DNA of 29,349 nt from IMG/VR virus record IMGVR_UViG_3300044991_000017, positions 1-29,349 of that record. One strand, given 5' to 3'. The DNA comes from a virus. Made by a program: the position numbers and the translations under genes. Positions 2,943 through 29,349 of this stretch are shown here, piece by piece. The notes beneath the pieces are model-generated. The model was not told where the DNA came from, made no database searches, and was given only the letters and a program-made list of their open reading frames with translations. Each line of letters opens with the position of its first letter. Within the stretch, counting starts at the first letter, position 1.

Positions 2943-3925
2943 AATGCACCTACATCAATCACTTCACCCCTAAATTCAATCTGATCTTCATCAAACTTGT
3001 GGACTAACTCAGGCCATAACAACTTACCATTAAAGAAGTTGAGAACCGCAAAGCCTGACCTGTGGTTGTTTGGGTTTATCTCAGCGTAAGTAAACTGCGG
3101 TCCATCTGGTTCAGCCAAGGTCCCCGTATCTACCCCGTATCTACATCCATTGTAATCAGAGAATGGAGTGACCTTTAATGAGTGCAAGTGTCCAGTAACG
3201 ATTGACACACCAGCATTTACAGTATTGTTGTGAGTGGCATGAACACCACCTTTATATCGGTGCTTGATGATGCAATCAGGAGTAGGCCACACTGCCCAAC
3301 AGAAGTCCCAATCTGGGATATGGTCTGTCAACTTAAAACCTAGAACTTCTTTAAATTGTGGTGCGTGTTGAGCAAGCCTGTTGCCAAACCGAATGTCGTG
3401 ATTGCCCCATGTAAAGCATAACTTTACATTGTGTCTTGCTGCTTTAGCTATTTCCTCTATTTCACCCAACGCACCCTGACAAGCCTTTAACTCTTGAATA
3501 ACAGAAGTTTGTGGTTGGTCAGTAACATCGTGGCGGGATATAGACGCACCATCAAAGGCATCCCCGTTACATATCACTGCCTTTGGTTTGAAGGTTTCTA
3601 TAGCCCATAGAAGCCCTTTAAACGCTGTTGTTCGTTGACCAGGTATGAAGTGAGCGTCTGAGAAGACAATGACAGTCCCATCTAGGATGCCAAGGTCTAC
3701 TTGTTTTAAAGGAGAGAAGGATTTAGGCTTAACTTTATCGTATTTAACGCCACGATGGTCACTTGCATGAAGTGCCATGTTGTAGTGCTTTTCAATCCAT
3801 CTTCTACGCAAATGAACTGCCCTGTTTGCAATGCCAAGATGGTCAGCTACTTTTTGAGCAGATTGAAGTTGACCCCATAGTTGGATAAACTCGGTATCAG
3901 TACACGTTTCGTTAGCACTTCCCAT
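2939..3925 (-). CDS. HTH-containing calcineurin-like metallophosphoesterase
   Basis: A 328-residue protein with an N-terminal helix-turn-helix (about residues 20-45, SAQKVADHLGIANRAVHLRR) joined to a calcineurin-like phosphoesterase domain. The metal motifs are all present in order: SDAH (89-92), GDAFD (121-125), GNHD (174-177), VHATH with H229, and GHLH (245-248). Such enzymes hydrolyse phosphodiesters or phosphomonoesters using two metal ions; with an attached HTH, a nucleic acid substrate is plausible. An AAGGG site lies 7 bases before the ATG. The start overlaps the zincin-like gene by 14 bases and the end overlaps a tiny membrane protein gene by 4, so the three are co-translated after the lysis genes. 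The phosphoesterase call is firm, the substrate unknown. Confidence 0.85.
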   Translation of the reverse strand: MGSANETCTDTEFIQLWGQLQSAQKVADHLGIANRAVHLRRRWIEKHYNMALHASDHRGVKYDKVKPKSFSPLKQVDLGILDGTVIVFSDAHFIPGQRTTAFKGLLWAIETFKPKAVICNGDAFDGASISRHDVTDQPQTSVIQELKACQGALGEIEEIAKAARHNVKLCFTWGNHDIRFGNRLAQHAPQFKEVLGFKLTDHIPDWDFCWAVWPTPDCIIKHRYKGGVHATHNNTVNAGVSIVTGHLHSLKVTPFSDYNGCRYGVDTGTLAEPDGPQFTYAEINPNNHRSGFAVLNFFNGKLLWPELVHKFDEDQIEFRGEVIDVGAF

Positions 3926-6203: not shown

Positions 6204-8672
6204 TTAGTTCCTAAAGAAGTCCATTAGACCTCGAATCGGTTTTTGGGGTATGAATTCATCAGGGTTTGTTACTGCTTCTGTCATTGCCTGACCCATTGCT
6301 GTACCCATGCCACCAGCACCTTGAAGTTGCTCACCAAGCAAGAATCTAGTGCCCCCAGGACTACTTAAAGCATTTCCAAGTCTATTTGCCATTGGTGGAA
6401 CTAATGTGACACCAGCCATTGCTCCTACTGTTGGATCAAATCCTAATGAAGTAGCGGCTCCTGCACCAGCACCAGCGCCCATTCCTGTTGTCATCAAAGG
6501 AACAGTCAAAGCACCTGTTTGTGGTGCAACTTTAGGAGTTACAGCACCACGGGTTGCATCAACAATACTACGCAACAAACCTACTTCACCCATTACTTCT
6601 GGTGATTGACCCATAACCATACGTTGAGCAGATGGCAACTCAGATCTGCCTAAATTCAATGTTCTGGTAAAAGCAGGAGATGACAACATAGCCGCTGCAT
6701 CTTCATTTATTGCAGCGCTACGGGCTTGGTTAAGAATTGAGTATTGAGCCGCTTGTCTACCAGTATCAGACATCAAATTAACAGCTAGTTCAGCAGTAGC
6801 AGGATTACCTGTCAAGCTAAAACTTTGGGCAATTTTATCAATTTCGTTTGCGGGTGTTTTGCTTGAAACAATCTTGTAGATGTCTTGATCTTGTCTAAAT
6901 GGGACAACAGTATTTCTAAACTGTTCCATTGCACGAGCGTGTTCTGCACCAGCAGGTGTGTAAACAGGTTTATTGTTTAAAGTTCTAGGAGCAGCCCAAG
7001 CATCCACATCATTTGCAAGACCTCCATATAACTTAGACAAAGCTGCTATTTGCTCTTCACCATATGTAGCAGGAGCTTTTTGTACTCTGTTTAATTCAGA
7101 ACCTACTGATTTTTGTAAAGTTCTTAATTCTTTATAAGTTCCACCACCAGCTTGGTTTAAAGTGGTTGCACGCTCAACAAGCTTGGTAATAAAGGCATTG
7201 TCTGCAACTGCGGGAAACTTGTCTAAAACCTCAATAGTTGCATTGCTTGTGTTTGACAAAGGAATTTGAGTATTCCCTGCCAACTTCTCAGCACGATCAA
7301 ATATTGGAGAAACAGCATCTTTAGCATTGCGATATTGAGTTCTCAAATCTTTAGCAATAACTAGTTTTTCACCACCTTCTTTAACAACAGAAGCAGGTTT
7401 AGCTTGTTCAGTAACTCTTTCAATAAGGCTTCTGACTTGAGCAGATTTCAGTTGATTTGCATCTTGTGTTGAATCGCCAAATTGACGAGTTTTACGCAGT
7501 AAATTAGAGCCTGGTCCACCAACATCGCCAATATCAATATTGACACCACGTTGAGCAGCAGACTCAATCAATTGACCAGTTACTGGATCACGATAACGTG
7601 TGCCAGCAGCAGGGTTTACATTTAATGGATTGGTGTTTCCTGCACGAGCCGCAACAGCACCCGCTGGCAGACCTGCTGCTAAGTTGATACCAAGCAATGC
7701 TAATGGGTTTTGAATATCAAATTGGTTACGGGCAATTTCAGCCGCACCAGTACCTGCTGTAGCACTAGCCATCTGAGCAACTGGTTGAGCCGCTAAACCA
7801 CGACCAACTGCTTGTGTAACAGCGCTTCCTGATTGTTGAAGTAAGCCACCAACACCACCCATCGCAGGTATACCAGCTACTGCACGAGTTACATTGCCAA
7901 TGCCACGCTCAAAACCAGTTTGTGGTTGTGGCAAACCAAGCATGGTTGCAAAGTTTGACATTGCTTGGCTAGGTGGTTGCAATTGACTGCCAGTAGCTCT
8001 GTTAATCAACATATTTAATGGTGATCCAACAATGTCGGCAACCTGCCCTAAGCCTTCCATGCCATAACGAGCAGTTAAGCCTACTTGACGGGCAACAGTA
8101 TCTGTATTCTGTCTTACAGGTGGTCTATCAACAATTTGCTGACCAACCATTGATGGATCAATAGCACGGAAGTTGGTACTTTGCTGTTGATCGGCATTAG
8201 CCATACCTGTCAAATCAATTCTAGGAGCTTGCTGTTCTGTTGGTTGACCAATCATAGAAGGATCAATTACACGATATGTAGCCATATTTGTACCCACAAC
8301 TTTCTGAACGTAATTTTGTGTTTCTTTAAATGGTGGAACGCCACCATACTTTTCAACATTTGCTGGTCCTGCGTTATAAGCAGCCGCTACCAATTTGGGA
8401 TCTTGGAATCTTTCTGTTAATTGGCCTAGATACTTAACACCACCACGGATGTTATCTTTCCAATCCATACGATTGACACCAAGATCTTTAGCAGTAGCAC
8501 CCATCAACTGCATAGGTCCATAAGCACGATCATTGAACCTTGTTTTTGGTCCTATCGCATTGAAAGAGCCACCAGACTCTGTTTCAACAATCTTCTGAAC
8601 TAAAGAAAAAGGAACGCCTTGCCTTTCAGCTTCTTGCCGAGCAAATTCGTAAACTTGATCTTTTGTAGCCAT
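6204..8672 (-). CDS. Ejection (internal virion) protein with lytic transglycosylase domain, T7 gp16-like
   Basis: An 822-residue virion protein whose first ~125 residues are a lytic transglycosylase (SLT) domain: catalytic Glu32 in ETESGG, YGPMQLM at 51-57, AAYNAGP at 97-103 and a closing NYVQKV near 120-125. The rest is long, Gly/Ala/Gln-rich and predicted mostly helical, including a Gly-Ala-rich MTTGMGAGAGAGAATSLG-like stretch near the end. In T7, gp16 has an N-terminal transglycosylase of this kind and enters the cell envelope to let DNA pass; this protein is last in a row that matches gp13-gp14-gp15-gp16. It is shorter than T7 gp16 (about 1,300 residues). Its ATG overlaps the stop of the preceding gene (TAATG). 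It is not an endolysin, since a separate lysozyme is present. Confidence 0.82.
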   Translation of the reverse strand: MATKDQVYEFARQEAERQGVPFSLVQKIVETESGGSFNAIGPKTRFNDRAYGPMQLMGATAKDLGVNRMDWKDNIRGGVKYLGQLTERFQDPKLVAAAYNAGPANVEKYGGVPPFKETQNYVQKVVGTNMATYRVIDPSMIGQPTEQQAPRIDLTGMANADQQQSTNFRAIDPSMVGQQIVDRPPVRQNTDTVARQVGLTARYGMEGLGQVADIVGSPLNMLINRATGSQLQPPSQAMSNFATMLGLPQPQTGFERGIGNVTRAVAGIPAMGGVGGLLQQSGSAVTQAVGRGLAAQPVAQMASATAGTGAAEIARNQFDIQNPLALLGINLAAGLPAGAVAARAGNTNPLNVNPAAGTRYRDPVTGQLIESAAQRGVNIDIGDVGGPGSNLLRKTRQFGDSTQDANQLKSAQVRSLIERVTEQAKPASVVKEGGEKLVIAKDLRTQYRNAKDAVSPIFDRAEKLAGNTQIPLSNTSNATIEVLDKFPAVADNAFITKLVERATTLNQAGGGTYKELRTLQKSVGSELNRVQKAPATYGEEQIAALSKLYGGLANDVDAWAAPRTLNNKPVYTPAGAEHARAMEQFRNTVVPFRQDQDIYKIVSSKTPANEIDKIAQSFSLTGNPATAELAVNLMSDTGRQAAQYSILNQARSAAINEDAAAMLSSPAFTRTLNLGRSELPSAQRMVMGQSPEVMGEVGLLRSIVDATRGAVTPKVAPQTGALTVPLMTTGMGAGAGAGAATSLGFDPTVGAMAGVTLVPPMANRLGNALSSPGGTRFLLGEQLQGAGGMGTAMGQAMTEAVTNPDEFIPQKPIRGLMDFFRN

Positions 8673-21905: not shown

Positions 21906-22886
21906 TTAGGTCTGAATTGTTGAGTTCAAGTCATAGACTGCGCCATGAGCTTTCTCATTCTTGATCTTCAAGCCCCACTCACACAAGAGCATACGCTTCT
22001 CGGCATCACCTGTCTTAGCCAGTTCAACTGTCTGAAAGGGACGCAGATAGCAGACGCTTGCGTACTCAGGATCAAGCACAAAAACATCACGCTCACGTTG
22101 GAAGCGGTTAGCAACAATGCTTACGTTACCAAAATCGGAAACATAAACATCTGCAGCGCCAATGATGGTTGAAGGCTTTGCACCTGTAGCATTGAAACGC
22201 TGACCAGCAATACCAGCCATCTTAGACAAGTTCTGTTTGTTAACAGGACCAGCCATAACGATGGAAGGAGCACCACCTTCTGTCCACACCTTCTGAATTA
22301 CGTCTTTCAGCAATGCTTCGCTGAATGAACGCAAGTTAGTAGTTGTAGCATCAGTACGAGCCGCATCAGGGATAGTGGTATATGAAGGATCAGAACCACC
22401 AGTACCTTCGCTAGTATTGGTCTTCAAGAAGGCCAACAAAGCGCCTGATTTACGGGCAGATGACGTAGAACCAGCGGCAGCGGCTTGGTTAGCCAACATT
22501 GTTGACTCCATGTCACGCTTAATTTCCGCAGATTTTTTAGCCATTTGGTAGCTCAATTCTGAGCGCCTGCCTGCTTTGTCAACAGCTTCCAAAGTACCAG
22601 CAATGATTACATCCTTACGGCTAATCTGGGTGTAGTTGCCCAAACGAACTGTAGCTGTAACTGCTGTGAAAGAGGTGATGTCATCGCCCTCGATCTGTGC
22701 ATTGGTTGTGCTGGCAGCAGCCAGGTCATCTGTTTGCCATTCAAAGAATGTGTTGGATACGTTTTCACGACCAACATTGCTCATAAATGGAGTTTCTTCT
22801 GGTGAAATCTGATAGATAACATTTGAAAGATCTTCCCGAACGCCTTTAGCGTCAAATCGGGTGTACGTGTTTGTAATAGCAGCCAT
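21906..22886 (-). CDS. Major capsid protein, SU10-type
   Basis: A 326-residue protein resembling the SU10 major head protein family (HK97 fold). The start NTYTRFDAKGVREDLSNVIYQISPEETPFMSNVG is typical: ...REDL...IY.I.P.ETPF.S..G. Then come WQTDDLAAA, IEGDD, an ISRK segment, the long helix (AKKSAEIKRDMESTMLANQ), and a late SDFGNVSIVANRFQRERDVFVLDPEY with AEKRMLLCEWGLKIKNEKAHG, the usual end of this family. An AAGGA site precedes the ATG. The scaffold gene is directly upstream and a strong terminator directly downstream, as expected for the most abundant virion protein. Confidence 0.9.
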   Translation of the reverse strand: MAAITNTYTRFDAKGVREDLSNVIYQISPEETPFMSNVGRENVSNTFFEWQTDDLAAASTTNAQIEGDDITSFTAVTATVRLGNYTQISRKDVIIAGTLEAVDKAGRRSELSYQMAKKSAEIKRDMESTMLANQAAAAGSTSSARKSGALLAFLKTNTSEGTGGSDPSYTTIPDAARTDATTTNLRSFSEALLKDVIQKVWTEGGAPSIVMAGPVNKQNLSKMAGIAGQRFNATGAKPSTIIGAADVYVSDFGNVSIVANRFQRERDVFVLDPEYASVCYLRPFQTVELAKTGDAEKRMLLCEWGLKIKNEKAHGAVYDLNSTIQT

Positions 22887-22895
22887 GATAGGTCC

Positions 22896-23882
22896 TTAAA
22901 TAAATTTCTCGAAAAGGGATGCGGCATCTCTGACGCTTCCAGTTTGTGCAAGACGCTTTTTTGCGTTATTTAAATCACTCGACTTAGAACTTACGCTACC
23001 CGCTGAACCAGAACTAACCATCTTTGGTGCTTTCTTAATCTTCGCTTGGAATTCTGGACGCTTACTCATCATCTGGTCATACTTCCACGCTTTGTGAAGC
23101 GCTAGTAATGCCCGTGAATCAGAGATAGTGTTCAGCTCCTGCTCGGAAAAGCCCAATTGCTGTCCGTATTCCAATAAAGCCTTACCTTCTGCTTTAGCTT
23201 TCTCTGGAGAACTCCACTCTGGAATTTTCTCTTTCAATATTGCAGTTTCCTGCGCTAAAGTAGCTTGTATATGCTTTTGGGATTCAGCTTGATACATTTG
23301 CTGAAGTCTCATCTGCTCTGCTTGTACTGCGTATCGTTGTTGCTGTCTACGCTGATGTGATGTCCATTGACGGGCATATTCAGTCGGATCTTCAACTTCT
23401 AAACGATTCCAATCAGGCTCTTGAGGCTCAAACTCTTGTAGTTTCTGCTGTAATTGTCCTAACACCTGTGAATATTGTTCACGCTCTACACGTACTTGCT
23501 GAAACTCAGATTCGACTAATTTGCGCTCTTCTGCTAGTTTCTGCGTTTTCCGTGTGTAGTCAGCTTCACGTTGATAACCTCGGATCAGTTCTTCCTTTGG
23601 GACTTCGATTTCTTTACCATCAACTTTGACAATAAACTTCTGATCCCTTGGAGCTTCTTCTTCGGACTCTTCGTCTTCGCTTCCTACTTCCTCGGAGGGT
23701 TCCTCTGCTTCTTCTTGCAATTCCGCAGATTCCACCTCTTCAGACTCAGATTCGGATTGCTCCTCCTCTGGTTGCGCCTCTGCACCAGTGTCAACACCCT
23801 CTTGAGCGTCTAGCATGGAAGCAAAGCTTTGCGCTGCTTGGTTTACTGTAATCGAACCGACTGCATTTGCGTTATCGGACAT
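22896..23882 (-). CDS. Scaffolding protein
   Basis: A 328-residue, highly charged and probably mostly helical protein. After a short start (SDNANAVGSITVNQAAQSFASML) comes a very acidic stretch (about residues 35-80, mostly Glu, Ser and Asp), then KFIVKVDGKEIEVPKEELIRGYQREADYTRKTQKL (a beta hairpin and start of a long helix), a Gln/Glu-rich coiled coil (about 110-250) and a basic Ser-rich C-terminus (KIKKAPKMVSSGSAGS, then KKRLAQTG). The .DG.E..V...ELI.GY.....YT.K element is typical of phage scaffolds. It would guide capsid assembly and leave before packaging. Position right before the capsid gene supports this. Confidence 0.82.
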   Translation of the reverse strand: MSDNANAVGSITVNQAAQSFASMLDAQEGVDTGAEAQPEEEQSESESEEVESAELQEEAEEPSEEVGSEDEESEEEAPRDQKFIVKVDGKEIEVPKEELIRGYQREADYTRKTQKLAEERKLVESEFQQVRVEREQYSQVLGQLQQKLQEFEPQEPDWNRLEVEDPTEYARQWTSHQRRQQQRYAVQAEQMRLQQMYQAESQKHIQATLAQETAILKEKIPEWSSPEKAKAEGKALLEYGQQLGFSEQELNTISDSRALLALHKAWKYDQMMSKRPEFQAKIKKAPKMVSSGSAGSVSSKSSDLNNAKKRLAQTGSVRDAASLFEKFI

Positions 23883-24176: not shown

Positions 24177-26330
24177 TTACATCATTGGTTGGGGCTGTTG
24201 AGGGACTTGCGCCTGATTCATTGCAGCCTGTTGACGGATTAATTCTCGGTCTCTATTCATTGCAGCATCTATTTCTGCGCTTTGAATTTGTACACCATAT
24301 TTCAATTCTAGCTCATATCTACGCAAAATACCATCTTGCTCAATACGATCTCTTTCTCTGTCATCAGACATAATCATTTTCTGACGCTCTAAATCCAATT
24401 CAGCAGCTTTCTTTTGAATATCCGCTTGAATAGATTGTGCTTGTACTTGGGCCAAAACTTCCTCTGGCGTAGGCTTTGGTTCTGGAGGTTCTGGCAGTTG
24501 GAAGTCAGCAGGTAACTGATTAAAGTAATTCTGTGAATCCTTGATGCCAGCAAGTTGCAACATCTTGGTTAAAGTGTTTGTGTACTGTGGTATTGTTACA
24601 ACAGGATTATTAGGACCTGTCTTTTCAATCAGCATTTCCTGACGCATTGCAACCTGATTCAAGATATTGATTCGGTCTTCAATAGTGCCATCACCAACAC
24701 CCACATTGACTGTTACGTCCATCTTAGAATCCCATGAACGGGGGTCAATTGGTACGAATGTATTACGCAAACGAACCATTCTTGCTCGGTCTTGATTCTC
24801 AACAACCAACTTCAAGATGCCAGTAAACAACTTACGTAAACCAGTTTCCGCAAAGATACGGGCAATCATCTCAATGTGCTGATGTGCGGCATTGACAGTC
24901 GCTGATACTGCGGCTTTGGTTGTACTCTGGAGAGCATCTGCATCTAACCCTGCAGCGGCCTTGGAAATGCCTGTACGGGTCTGTTTAATGTCATCCAAGT
25001 AGTCAAGCATTGGGAATGCTGCCTGACCAACAAACGGAGTAGTAAACGGCTGAACCATGCCTGGCGCTCTCATGCGAATCACAGCACCCACTTCAGTATT
25101 AAGGACGTCTTCCATGTTGGCTTGTCCTTCTACGATGGCAGTGCGTGGATGGATAGCTTGAGCCAAAGAGTCTAGGATGCCACGTTGGACATTAGACTTA
25201 ATACGCTGAATATCCATCACTACGTCAGCAGGACACATACCAAAAAAGGTATGGGGTTCTGGATCAGGACAGAAGTCAGCAAACTGCCTGTCATCAACAA
25301 TTTCGTTACGCAGAACTTTGTTGCCTGTACCTACAGTACAAATCCTACGCATCTCAGCAATGCCATCGCCATCAAAGTCTACCTTTAAGTAGCCTTCAAT
25401 ATAGAGAACACTCTTGCTTGATGGATCACCATTGTTTGCGGTACTGATAACAGCAAACGGGTTGCGGGATGTGTACTCTTGGTTGTTGTCAAAGTCGTTA
25501 CCATTGCCAGCAACTTCAACCATCTCATCGTAGTCATAACCCATAGCCACTAGATCGGAAACAGTCTTCATAGTCCTGTGGCCTACAAAAGTAGCTTCTT
25601 CAATAGACTTTGCCCTGCGGTCAATCAGGAACTCTTCTGGTGGTAGAGACTCAATCTTTACCTTACCAGATTTAATTCTGCGCTTGATCTCCACATCGTA
25701 CATCATGGGAGGTGGAGTCATAATGCCTTGAGCTTCATTCATAGGCTCAGTACCTGGCACTGGATACTCACGCACCGCAGAGATTTCCACATCTGGGTTC
25801 TCTGTCAACATCATCATGCTCTGCTCATCAAGCATAGAGAATGATTCTGCTTTAACTTCTACTGACTCATCCCAATAGTATTTAACGATACCGCACTTGC
25901 GAACCAAAGCATCTTTGAAAGCAGAGTGAAGGATCTTAAAGCCAGGGTTATCACGCTTGAAGATAAAGTCTACATAGTCTGTAGCTTGTTCAGCATTCTG
26001 AACATCCTCTGGTCCTTGTGGGGTGAACTCAACCACACGCTCTGGACCAAAGAATATACGCATTAAGCTTGGCAAGATGCCTTGAACAGTATCACGGACA
26101 TCCATTGACACTACTTGTGATCGGCCTTCTTCTTCGTCACCAAATGGTAGGCCATAGTAGTATTCAGTCGCTAATGCACGATTGCCACCAATGTCATCAT
26201 CTATAAAAGAAATGGCATCATAGATTTCAGCAGAGATAACGCCTTGAAGTTGCTCTTCAGACATTACCTCATCGCCTTCCATCTCGCCTTGCATGGTCTC
26301 AGCCATCAACATTGGATTTTCGTTAATCAT
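24177..26330 (-). CDS. Portal protein, SU10-type
   Basis: A 717-residue protein matching the SU10 portal style. Near the start: AISFIDDDIGGNRALATEYYYGLPFGDEEEGRSQVV, then VVSMDVRDTVQGILPSLMRIFFGPERVVEF, typical of this group, and KCGIVKYYWDE. A central segment has PPEEFLIDRRAKS and an ILDSLAQAIHPR region, and a long helical end rich in Gln/Ala (QSIQADIQKKAAELDLERQKM..., AAMNQAQVPQQP) fits the crown or barrel. Twelve copies would form the DNA gateway of the head and bind terminase. An AAGGA site lies ahead of the ATG. Confidence 0.9.
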   Translation of the reverse strand: MINENPMLMAETMQGEMEGDEVMSEEQLQGVISAEIYDAISFIDDDIGGNRALATEYYYGLPFGDEEEGRSQVVSMDVRDTVQGILPSLMRIFFGPERVVEFTPQGPEDVQNAEQATDYVDFIFKRDNPGFKILHSAFKDALVRKCGIVKYYWDESVEVKAESFSMLDEQSMMMLTENPDVEISAVREYPVPGTEPMNEAQGIMTPPPMMYDVEIKRRIKSGKVKIESLPPEEFLIDRRAKSIEEATFVGHRTMKTVSDLVAMGYDYDEMVEVAGNGNDFDNNQEYTSRNPFAVISTANNGDPSSKSVLYIEGYLKVDFDGDGIAEMRRICTVGTGNKVLRNEIVDDRQFADFCPDPEPHTFFGMCPADVVMDIQRIKSNVQRGILDSLAQAIHPRTAIVEGQANMEDVLNTEVGAVIRMRAPGMVQPFTTPFVGQAAFPMLDYLDDIKQTRTGISKAAAGLDADALQSTTKAAVSATVNAAHQHIEMIARIFAETGLRKLFTGILKLVVENQDRARMVRLRNTFVPIDPRSWDSKMDVTVNVGVGDGTIEDRINILNQVAMRQEMLIEKTGPNNPVVTIPQYTNTLTKMLQLAGIKDSQNYFNQLPADFQLPEPPEPKPTPEEVLAQVQAQSIQADIQKKAAELDLERQKMIMSDDRERDRIEQDGILRRYELELKYGVQIQSAEIDAAMNRDRELIRQQAAMNQAQVPQQPQPMM

Positions 26331-26339
26331 ATTATTTCC

Positions 26340-26717
26340 TTATCGTGAACCGATATAAGGGAGGATTCCAGAATTAGTATTCTGTAATAGAGAAGGGATG
26401 CCACCAACATTATTGTTAGCCATACCACCATATGCGTTAGGCATTTGTTTGAAGCCAAGATTCTTTTCATCTTCATTAGGATTAAATGCTAATTGGAAAC
26501 CACTTCTAGCAGTGTCAGCCATGCTTGCATTTGGATTCATAGCTGTGTTGTAGAAGTTTTGGTAGGGTTGCATTTGCGGAGAAATCATATTGCCAACAGC
26601 TTGGGTTGCTTGTTGACCAAAAGATACTGGCGCTGCACCGCCACTCATTACAGCTTCAGATCCACCAACTGCTTCTGGACCAAATGATTCAAATAATGCT
26701 GATAACCATGTAGGCAT
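26340..26717 (-). CDS. Hypothetical Asn/Gln/Gly-rich protein (125 aa)
   Basis: A 125-residue protein without a recognised domain. It starts PTWLSALFESFGPEA and has a Gly/Ala/Ser/Gln stretch (GGSEAVMSGGAAPVSFGQQATQAVG), PQMQPYQNFYNTAMNPN and an Asn/Gly-rich end (YGGMANNNVGGIPSLL...GILPYIGSR). Composition resembles the low-complexity structural proteins near the ejection genes. It ends 9 bases before the portal start and begins right at the stop of the HiPIP-like gene. May be a minor virion protein; function unknown. Confidence 0.55.
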   Translation of the reverse strand: MPTWLSALFESFGPEAVGGSEAVMSGGAAPVSFGQQATQAVGNMISPQMQPYQNFYNTAMNPNASMADTARSGFQLAFNPNEDEKNLGFKQMPNAYGGMANNNVGGIPSLLQNTNSGILPYIGSR

Positions 26718-27158
26718 TTAGTCCTCCTCTTCTTCCATGTCGTATTCGGTCTTAGCCATCATCAACATATTAGATTGATTCTTGGTCATCTTCTTGGTGA
26801 TAGGGCCACCAGATAGCCATGCTGAACAGGTACGCTCACCCGCACACTTAAAGTCAAATAGCTCACAGTAGCCAAGATTAGCCGCACCCTGTACATCTTT
26901 GGCATAGCCATCAGTCTCTTCATCTATACCTTTAAGGATACAGTCAAGCATCTCTGGGGTCTGGATAAAGGCAGCGCAGTTACCGCAACGCATCTCTTGA
27001 ACTTTATCAATAGATACTGTCCACATATCAGCGAGGTTCTGCCAGTATTCTTCGTTGTCTTCTTCTGGGTTGGCAGGACCATAGTCCACATTCTTGATTG
27101 CCCAATTACGGGCTTTCAAGTTGGCCTTGATGTCATAAGTAGCGATAGGGCATTTCAT
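26718..27158 (-). CDS. HiPIP-like cysteine protein
   Basis: A 146-residue protein with six cysteines in its second half, in the order RCGNCAAF (C58, C61), LDCI (C73), GYCELFDFKC (C98, C105) and ERTCSAW (C111). The C-x2-C ... GxCxLF ... CSxW layout closely parallels high-potential iron-sulfur proteins, in which CxxC, a G-C-x-LF cysteine and a final C.SW cysteine hold a [4Fe-4S] cluster (here C58, C61, C98, C111). C73 and C105 are extra. The N-terminus (KCPIATYDIKANLKARNWAI) and acidic tail (MEEEED) are additions. Cluster binding is inferred; zinc is an alternative. It is co-transcribed between terminase and portal; no function is known. The ATG overlaps the upstream stop by 4 bases. Confidence 0.62.
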   Translation of the reverse strand: MKCPIATYDIKANLKARNWAIKNVDYGPANPEEDNEEYWQNLADMWTVSIDKVQEMRCGNCAAFIQTPEMLDCILKGIDEETDGYAKDVQGAANLGYCELFDFKCAGERTCSAWLSGGPITKKMTKNQSNMLMMAKTEYDMEEEED

Positions 27159-27442
27159 TTTTTATTCCTTGCAGAAATAGCTTTAGCCTTTGCTCTAGCA
27201 TCTGCTTTACTGCTTGCACCCCATGCTTGGAGGCTTAGAAGTAATCTAGTTGGCTTTCCATCTTTGTACTCAGGACCATCATTTCCTGCCATCCTTGCAA
27301 GGAAACTAGCTCTACGTGGATTATCTCCAGACTTAACAGGGGCTTTAATGTCTTGGCCTTGTGCTTTTAAACTAGCACGACCTTTAGCATTTAACCCACC
27401 TTTAGGGTTTTGCCCTTCTTTTCTGGTCCACGCAGCGCTCAT
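27155..27442 (-). CDS. Small basic phage protein (DUF6321-like)
   Basis: A 95-residue basic protein: AAWTRKEGQNPKGGLNAKGRASLK, then VKSGDNPRRASFLARMAG, then LLSLQAWGASSKADARAKAKAI. This WTRKEG...P.GGLN..G ... NP...SF.ARM.G order matches, from memory, a small phage-borne domain of unknown function. High Lys/Arg content suggests nucleic acid contact. The ATG overlaps the stop of the 48-residue gene upstream (ATGA) and its stop overlaps the HiPIP-like start (ATGA). It belongs to a cluster of three basic small proteins between terminase and portal, where a packaging or head-linked role is plausible. Confidence 0.65.
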   Translation of the reverse strand: MSAAWTRKEGQNPKGGLNAKGRASLKAQGQDIKAPVKSGDNPRRASFLARMAGNDGPEYKDGKPTRLLLSLQAWGASSKADARAKAKAISARNKK

Positions 27443-28196: not shown

Positions 28197-29349
28197 TCAG
28201 ACTAGGCCACGGATCAACCTTTTTATCGGTTTACCCCAAGACATATTTGATCCCCAAGACACAGTAGCGGCATCGGATGCAAATGTCAACACAAAAGCAT
28301 CAGCCATGTCAGGAGATTTCAATCCCCTACGTCTAATATCGTCCTTAGATTCAATCTTAATCTTGCCGTTGGATGTAAAGGTGTACCTTACAGTCGCCAG
28401 TTCAGCAATGAAATCTTCATTGTTTGGTATCTTGCAGTCACGTTTCTCAAGCCAAGCCTTGGTTTTGTGCCATAGTTCTGCTCTCAGGTTGAGATAAGTA
28501 CCGCCCATTGCTGGACTCTCAGATACGTTAATACCCCTGCATGGCAACTTAAGTTCTCTTAATCGGTCAACAACACCAGCTCCAAGGCCAATAGAGTCAA
28601 CCAGAATCTCTGTAGGTTTACTCTTGTGGTCACAGGCTTCGTACTGAGCCACCACCGCACCAGTGAGTTGCATGAGGTCTAGGTTTCTCCAGCGCTCTAG
28701 TGTATGAACCACATTGGATTGACGCTTACACAAAACTGACGAGTCAGAGCCGAACCGAGCAACGTCCAATCCCCAAACAATCGGAGCGTCTTCATAGGCT
28801 CTTGTATCTCGATGTTTAGCAGACTCAAGTAGTTCCATTGGGATAATCGTGTCATCGTCACTCCTTGGGAATTCACCTAGTACACGGATACGATAGGCAT
28901 TAGATTCCTCGCCATAGCGGGATTTCATGTCTTCTACGTACTCTTTACTGACACGGGTAGAGTCCAGACAGGATACCCGTCTAGTCCACCATTCATCTTT
29001 TAGACGATTATGTGTGTCAAAGAAGAAGCCAGAAGAGCGTACTGGATTGCCTAACAGTATGGTTAGAGCGTTATGACCAGACATAGAACCCGCAGCGGCC
29101 TCAAATACTGCCTCTGGGACACCAGAAGCCTCATCTGCTACCAGCATCACGTTATCAGAGTGGACACCTTGTAAGGCTTCGGGTTGTTCAGCACGAGATG
29201 TTCGAGCAGAGATAAAAGCCTCGGTAGCGGAAGCTTTGAGTTCTATCCTCTCTTGTTTGACATCAAGTAGGTCTTGGATAGGCTTGGGTAGTTCTTTGAC
29301 CCATCTCTTTAGCTCGGCAAACAAAGCGTCATACAGCTGGGCAGAAGTA
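28197..29349 (-). CDS. terL: Terminase large subunit, C-terminal part (cut by window edge)
   Basis: The visible 383 residues stay open to the window edge (TSAQLYDALFAELKR at the edge), so the gene continues beyond it; an internal TTG at 29324 is not the true start. Seen: Walker B strand with catalytic acid NVMLVADEAS (about residues 67-75), a TILLGNPVRSSG coupling motif (about 96-107), and the nuclease domain with GLDVARFGSD (Asp195), EILVDSIGLGAGV (Asp251) and SPDMADAF (Asp347/350), the three acidic groups that hold metal ions. Walker A lies off the window. It packages DNA into proheads and cuts concatemers. No small subunit is seen here; it is probably upstream of the edge. A strong terminator follows. 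Confidence 0.9.
   Translation of the reverse strand, partial: TSAQLYDALFAELKRWVKELPKPIQDLLDVKQERIELKASATEAFISARTSRAEQPEALQGVHSDNVMLVADEASGVPEAVFEAAAGSMSGHNALTILLGNPVRSSGFFFDTHNRLKDEWWTRRVSCLDSTRVSKEYVEDMKSRYGEESNAYRIRVLGEFPRSDDDTIIPMELLESAKHRDTRAYEDAPIVWGLDVARFGSDSSVLCKRQSNVVHTLERWRNLDLMQLTGAVVAQYEACDHKSKPTEILVDSIGLGAGVVDRLRELKLPCRGINVSESPAMGGTYLNLRAELWHKTKAWLEKRDCKIPNNEDFIAELATVRYTFTSNGKIKIESKDDIRRRGLKSPDMADAFVLTFASDAATVSWGSNMSWGKPIKRLIRGLV

Follow-up and report, generated by a model that had tools for sequence, protein, structure and literature searches.

A five-cysteine protein with a predicted HiPIP-like fold encoded among the head and packaging genes of aquatic phages

The window analyzed here is a 29,349-nucleotide stretch of viral DNA (positions 1 to 29,349 of IMG/VR record IMGVR_UViG_3300044991_000017) in which densely packed late genes form a cluster. 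This cluster encodes the terminase large subunit (28197..29348, running off the window end; phrog_2, E=5e-33), small proteins, a basic DUF6321 protein (27155..27442; PF19846, E=7.5e-19), a 146-aa five-cysteine protein resembling high potential iron-sulfur proteins (HiPIPs) (26718..27158, ATG start, TAA stop), a 125-aa protein without matches (26340..26717), the portal protein (24177..26330; phrog_1216, E=3e-164), a head scaffolding protein (22896..23882; phrog_3927, E=7e-70) and the major head protein (21906..22886; phrog_1328, E=8e-109), all on the minus strand. The last 4 bases of the DUF6321 gene are shared with the start of the HiPIP-like gene, and the frame of the 125-aa protein starts directly past the HiPIP-like stop codon.

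The cysteines of the 146-aa protein are found at positions 3, 58, 61, 73, 98, 105 and 111. The putative cluster ligands 1 to 4 are C58 (codon 26985..26987, minus strand, as are all codons given here), C61 (26976..26978), C98 (26865..26867) and C111 (26826..26828), each invariant in 119 of 119 non-redundant family members; C98 lies in a G-x-C-x-L-F context and C111 in a C-x-A-W context, both HiPIP-like. C105 (26844..26846) is an extra near-invariant cysteine that HiPIPs do not have; it was overlooked in an earlier note on this DNA and is conserved as strongly as the four putative ligands (119 of 119). C3 (27150..27152) and C73 (26940..26942) are accessory cysteines that occur together. What the earlier note had described is otherwise present in this ORF: C58-x2-C61, GYC98ELF and TC111SAW follow the ligand layout of HiPIPs, the gene lies between terminase and portal in a coupled late operon, and the last spacing (12 residues) is near that of HiPIPs, with 12-13 residues in the 30 HiPIPs counted and exactly 12 in 3h31 from Rhodothermus marinus. 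A generic form of the HiPIP ligand layout, C-x2-C-x(8,45)-C-x2-[FWYLIMV]-x(7,12)-C-x2-[FWY], is found in the window protein, in 347 of 348 family members and in all 30 HiPIPs, versus 8 of 8,455 non-family ORFs from the same loci and, as a measure of chance, 236 of 200,000 shuffles of the window protein. The spacing between the second and third ligands is 36 residues in the window protein and 21-42 in the family, versus 8-16 in HiPIPs. In addition, HiPIPs have their hallmark G-[WY]-C at the fourth cysteine, but the G-Y-C of the window protein is at the third; the matching third-cysteine context in HiPIPs is G-x-C-x-L-F or G-C-x-L-F.

The window protein belongs to a large aquatic-phage family, with at least 319 relatives of the window type in IMG/VR. 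Conservation of the cysteines across homologues had been set as a test of the HiPIP proposal, and the layout C-x2-C-x(21-42)-C-x6-C-x5-C is kept in 346 of the 348 collected sequences, the two exceptions being one truncated sequence and one with C105 changed to serine. The latter (L287, ORF at 3270, plus strand) is the sole intact relative seen with this change and keeps the other four cysteines. In the 119 members sharing less than 90% identity, G96 is invariant along with the five cysteines, and N60, F64, F103 and W114 are nearly so; the five cysteines are near-invariant across an identity range of 19-100%. The median dN/dS was 0.06 over 85 comparisons, indicating strong purifying selection on the family. 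C3 and C73 are both found in 188 members and neither in 155, with 4 exceptions (2 of them truncated contigs); this pairing follows subfamilies, so few events may lie behind it, and a disulfide or a shared metal site is possible.

Annotated phage records with a relative are few, consisting of Actinomycetia phage DSL-LC01, six uncultured Manatee Spring phages and Roseobacter phage CRP-13, for which the host strain is named. Except for that of CRP-13, the depositors' name for all of these relatives is 'high potential iron-sulfur protein' (records annotated in this way include OQ999401, MW202701, MW202710, MW202867, MW202879 and MW202462), a point the earlier note had also overlooked. The proteins annotated in this way belong to the same family as the window protein, with 33-49% identity and the same five cysteines. 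The plasmid records searched contained no relative, and genome contigs yielded only 6, all on MAG contigs, at least one of which (L162) has phage capsid genes. The HiPIP resemblance is already flagged by GenBank annotation and is undiscussed in the literature searched for HiPIPs in phages, which held no paper discussing such a protein; the main text of the DSL-LC01 paper makes no mention of it.

The profile-profile comparison with HiPIPs that the earlier note called for did reveal a similarity, although a weak one. Alignment by hhalign to a profile that combines 1cku with 29 HiPIPs from genomes gave P values of 0.001-0.06 and a probability of at most 18%. Of 60 shuffles that kept the cysteines and scrambled the other HiPIP columns, only 0-2 reached the observed profile score, indicating that context residues contribute to it, namely C-x-N-C-x2-aromatic, G-x-C-x-L-F and C-x-[AS]-W. 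The Pfam HIPIP model (PF01355) gives no hit to the window protein; it matches 4 of 117 relatives, with a best E of 0.013 that does not reach the curated cut-off. Searches of Pfam, NCBIfam and PHROGs assigned no family to the window protein, and sequence searches of the PDB with the single protein and two family profiles returned nothing meaningful. The PROSITE-like pattern with the fourth ligand in G-[YW]-C is found in 0 of 348 family members versus 27 of 30 HiPIPs. Given the weak profile similarity, the sparse Pfam matches and the lack of this signature, we class this as a family with a HiPIP-like fold and not as a classical HiPIP. Inspected by eye, the first residues of the window protein show no twin-arginine motif or hydrophobic run.

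The window protein was modeled by template-free AlphaFold2 from a 117-row alignment (pLDDT 91.4). C61 and C98 are separated by a long insertion in the window subfamily, so we also modeled a compact relative from the shortest subfamily (99 aa, 100% identical over its length to CRP-13 gp68; template-free AlphaFold2, pLDDT 87.7). When 350,542 PDB chains were searched with Foldseek, HiPIPs took ranks 1-13 for the window model, with E values of only 0.29-1.9, and all 14 rows upon VIA realignment were HiPIPs (Z 3.2-4.4). For the compact relative, 13 HiPIPs again occupied ranks 1-13, with E values down to 0.007 and probabilities up to 1.00, and the first Foldseek match after them appeared only at E 2.3. 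VIA realignment of this model gave HiPIPs Z values of 4.6-6.5, the remaining rows being only the small chains of benzylsuccinate synthase and another glycyl-radical enzyme. By themselves the VIA Z values are moderate; for these models HiPIPs outrank everything else and nearly the whole HiPIP chain is covered. Judged by their end-points, the structural alignments pair C111 with C77 of 1b0y, C55 of 1isu and C66 of 3h31, provided that the ends are ungapped. The models are metal-free, and what AlphaFold2 learned may include the HiPIP pattern. Because two template-free models match HiPIPs first and no other fold consistently, structure prediction sides with the earlier proposal of a HiPIP fold, and we consider the predicted HiPIP-like fold well supported and hold it with high confidence.

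The genomic setting of the family points to the phage head. Among 108 representative loci, the fetched flanks contain a terminase gene in 73, a portal gene in 61 and either in 80, always on the same strand as the HiPIP-like gene; in a minority of phages the gene is located outside the terminase-portal block. At L162:891-3923, a single 1,011-aa frame carries an N-terminal HiPIP-like domain followed by phrog_2859, DUF5824-like, prohead protease and HK97 major capsid domains, and in L232 and L235 a HiPIP-like domain precedes a head maturation protease within one frame. In DSL-LC01 the HiPIP-like gene is directly upstream of genes named capsid maturation protease. Structural relatives in BFVD have the names portal, prohead protease, XkdF and DUF6321 protein, the fusions to Dps, portal and XkdF being known here from BFVD names alone; the HiPIP-like model also matches one BFVD relative called DUF6321 protein, which suggests a fusion there as well. 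Gene order differs among phages whose portals and capsids also differ, which suggests that the domain is mobile between head modules. The linkage to terminase and portal and the fusions to prohead protease and capsid support a role in the prohead and do not in themselves show the partner or the step. They also back the suggestion in the earlier note that the fold was recruited as a component of the virion or of packaging, and we regard a head or packaging role as probable.

Overall, as the best explanation of this gene we lean towards the reuse of a HiPIP-fold [4Fe-4S] domain, located in the cytoplasm, as a subunit for prohead assembly or packaging. C58, C61, C98 and C111 would most likely hold one [4Fe-4S] cluster, the presence of which we consider likely from the ligand pattern and predicted fold, and C105, probably adjacent to the cluster, would be a core residue or else a spare or alternative ligand. 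The protein would be produced together with the late gene products, its most likely role being that of an accessory subunit of the prohead, at the portal, the prohead protease or the packaging complex. By analogy with the HiPIP-fold subunits of glycyl-radical enzymes, the cluster would mainly stabilize a small fold or tune a conformational step and not carry electrons. A bolder version, in which these are head subunits with a redox-active [4Fe-4S] cluster, the C105-type fifth cysteine is a switchable ligand and maturation or packaging is tied to host Fe-S assembly or redox, is speculative and in our judgment improbable.

Relative to HiPIPs (PF01355; 1b0y, 1hlq, 1isu, 3h31), the phage family is alike in predicted fold, in the C-x2-C ... 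C-x12/13-C layout and in the residue contexts of the cysteines, and unlike them in its longer C2-C3 loop, C105, its head-gene setting, the missing G-[WY]-C at the last ligand, the lack of a significant sequence match for the phage protein and the lack of a visible export signal. The accessory subunits of glycyl-radical enzymes are HiPIP-fold [4Fe-4S] proteins with a C-x2-C-xn-C-xn-C pattern and with roles in solubility and conformational control; in MASS beta the ligands are C32, C35, C51 and C86, and the loops are of variable length (PMC12358834, 2025). The phage protein resembles these subunits (benzylsuccinate synthase beta/gamma, MASS beta/gamma and HPAD gamma) in its predicted HiPIP-like fold, its C-x2-C-xn-C-xn-C pattern and its proposed place as a small cytoplasmic subunit of a larger assembly, whereas cysteine spacing and partners differ. 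No glycyl-radical enzyme gene was found among the window proteins or the neighbor clusters scanned. Phage particles have an iron-sulfur precedent at the tail tip, where siphophages and gene transfer agents have Fe-S proteins (lambda gpL type) that belong to a different family.

The main rival to this reading is a head or packaging protein with the same small fold, or a related knuckle, whose cysteines bind zinc in a solely structural role. Zinc sites, too, typically have C-x2-C plus further cysteines, and some relatives give weak, sub-threshold matches to the zinc ribbons Zn_ribbon_6, Zn_ribbon_12, Znf_XAF1_N and Zn_ribbon_Com (E 0.05-0.11) and to DUF7140 (E 0.0017). However, the leading structural matches do not include any zinc-binding fold, the consistent ones being [4Fe-4S] proteins throughout, and the aromatic and small residues that flank the cysteines fit the HiPIP pattern, such that we consider zinc unlikely. 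Somewhat less likely still is a late-gene regulator or redox/oxygen sensor acting outside the head, whose cluster would report the state of the cell and modulate packaging, lysis or host functions. Consistent with such a function, the protein is small, apparently cytoplasmic and equipped with an extra near-invariant cysteine, its gene position differs between phages, and HNH endonuclease and methyltransferase genes often adjoin it, but the prohead protease and capsid fusions and the same-strand linkage to terminase and portal indicate a head module.

The fold, the ligand layout and the depositors' name on the relatives would also agree with an auxiliary metabolic gene encoding a true HiPIP-type soluble electron carrier for host respiration or photosynthesis. 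HiPIPs work in the periplasm, whereas no signal peptide is evident in the first residues of the phage protein; it also has neither a Pfam match nor the GWC signature, and it is encoded with head genes, with no metabolic neighbor, and fused to head proteins in relatives. With no export signal seen, and with partner and signature lacking, this candidate was set aside as very improbable.

What is found here is a known fold in an unexpected place, as a variant, and is partly pre-empted by GenBank annotation. If confirmed, the favored reading would place an iron-sulfur protein in the head or packaging module of aquatic phages on a wide scale, link phage production to the iron and cluster assembly of the host, and add a third setting for the HiPIP fold after electron carriers and glycyl-radical-enzyme subunits. 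It also offers a testable cofactor and testable partners for a family unrecognized by PHROGs.

Several minor observations concern the same loci and sequences. The DUF6321 gene is a frequent neighbor of the HiPIP-like gene, and an HNH endonuclease gene (the cluster of L106:3072-3398, present at 16 loci) is located one or two genes upstream of it in 13 loci. Eight family members match phrog_5424 ('ATPase', 527 positions) with a best E of 0.0003, the protein at L249:5001-5297 doing so at positions 83-149, and the phrog_5424 family may contain the same domain. Elsewhere in the window, the late protein encoded at positions 6204-8672 (822 aa) has an endolysin-like domain at its N-terminus and is probably a lytic protein that is ejected or associated with the tail.
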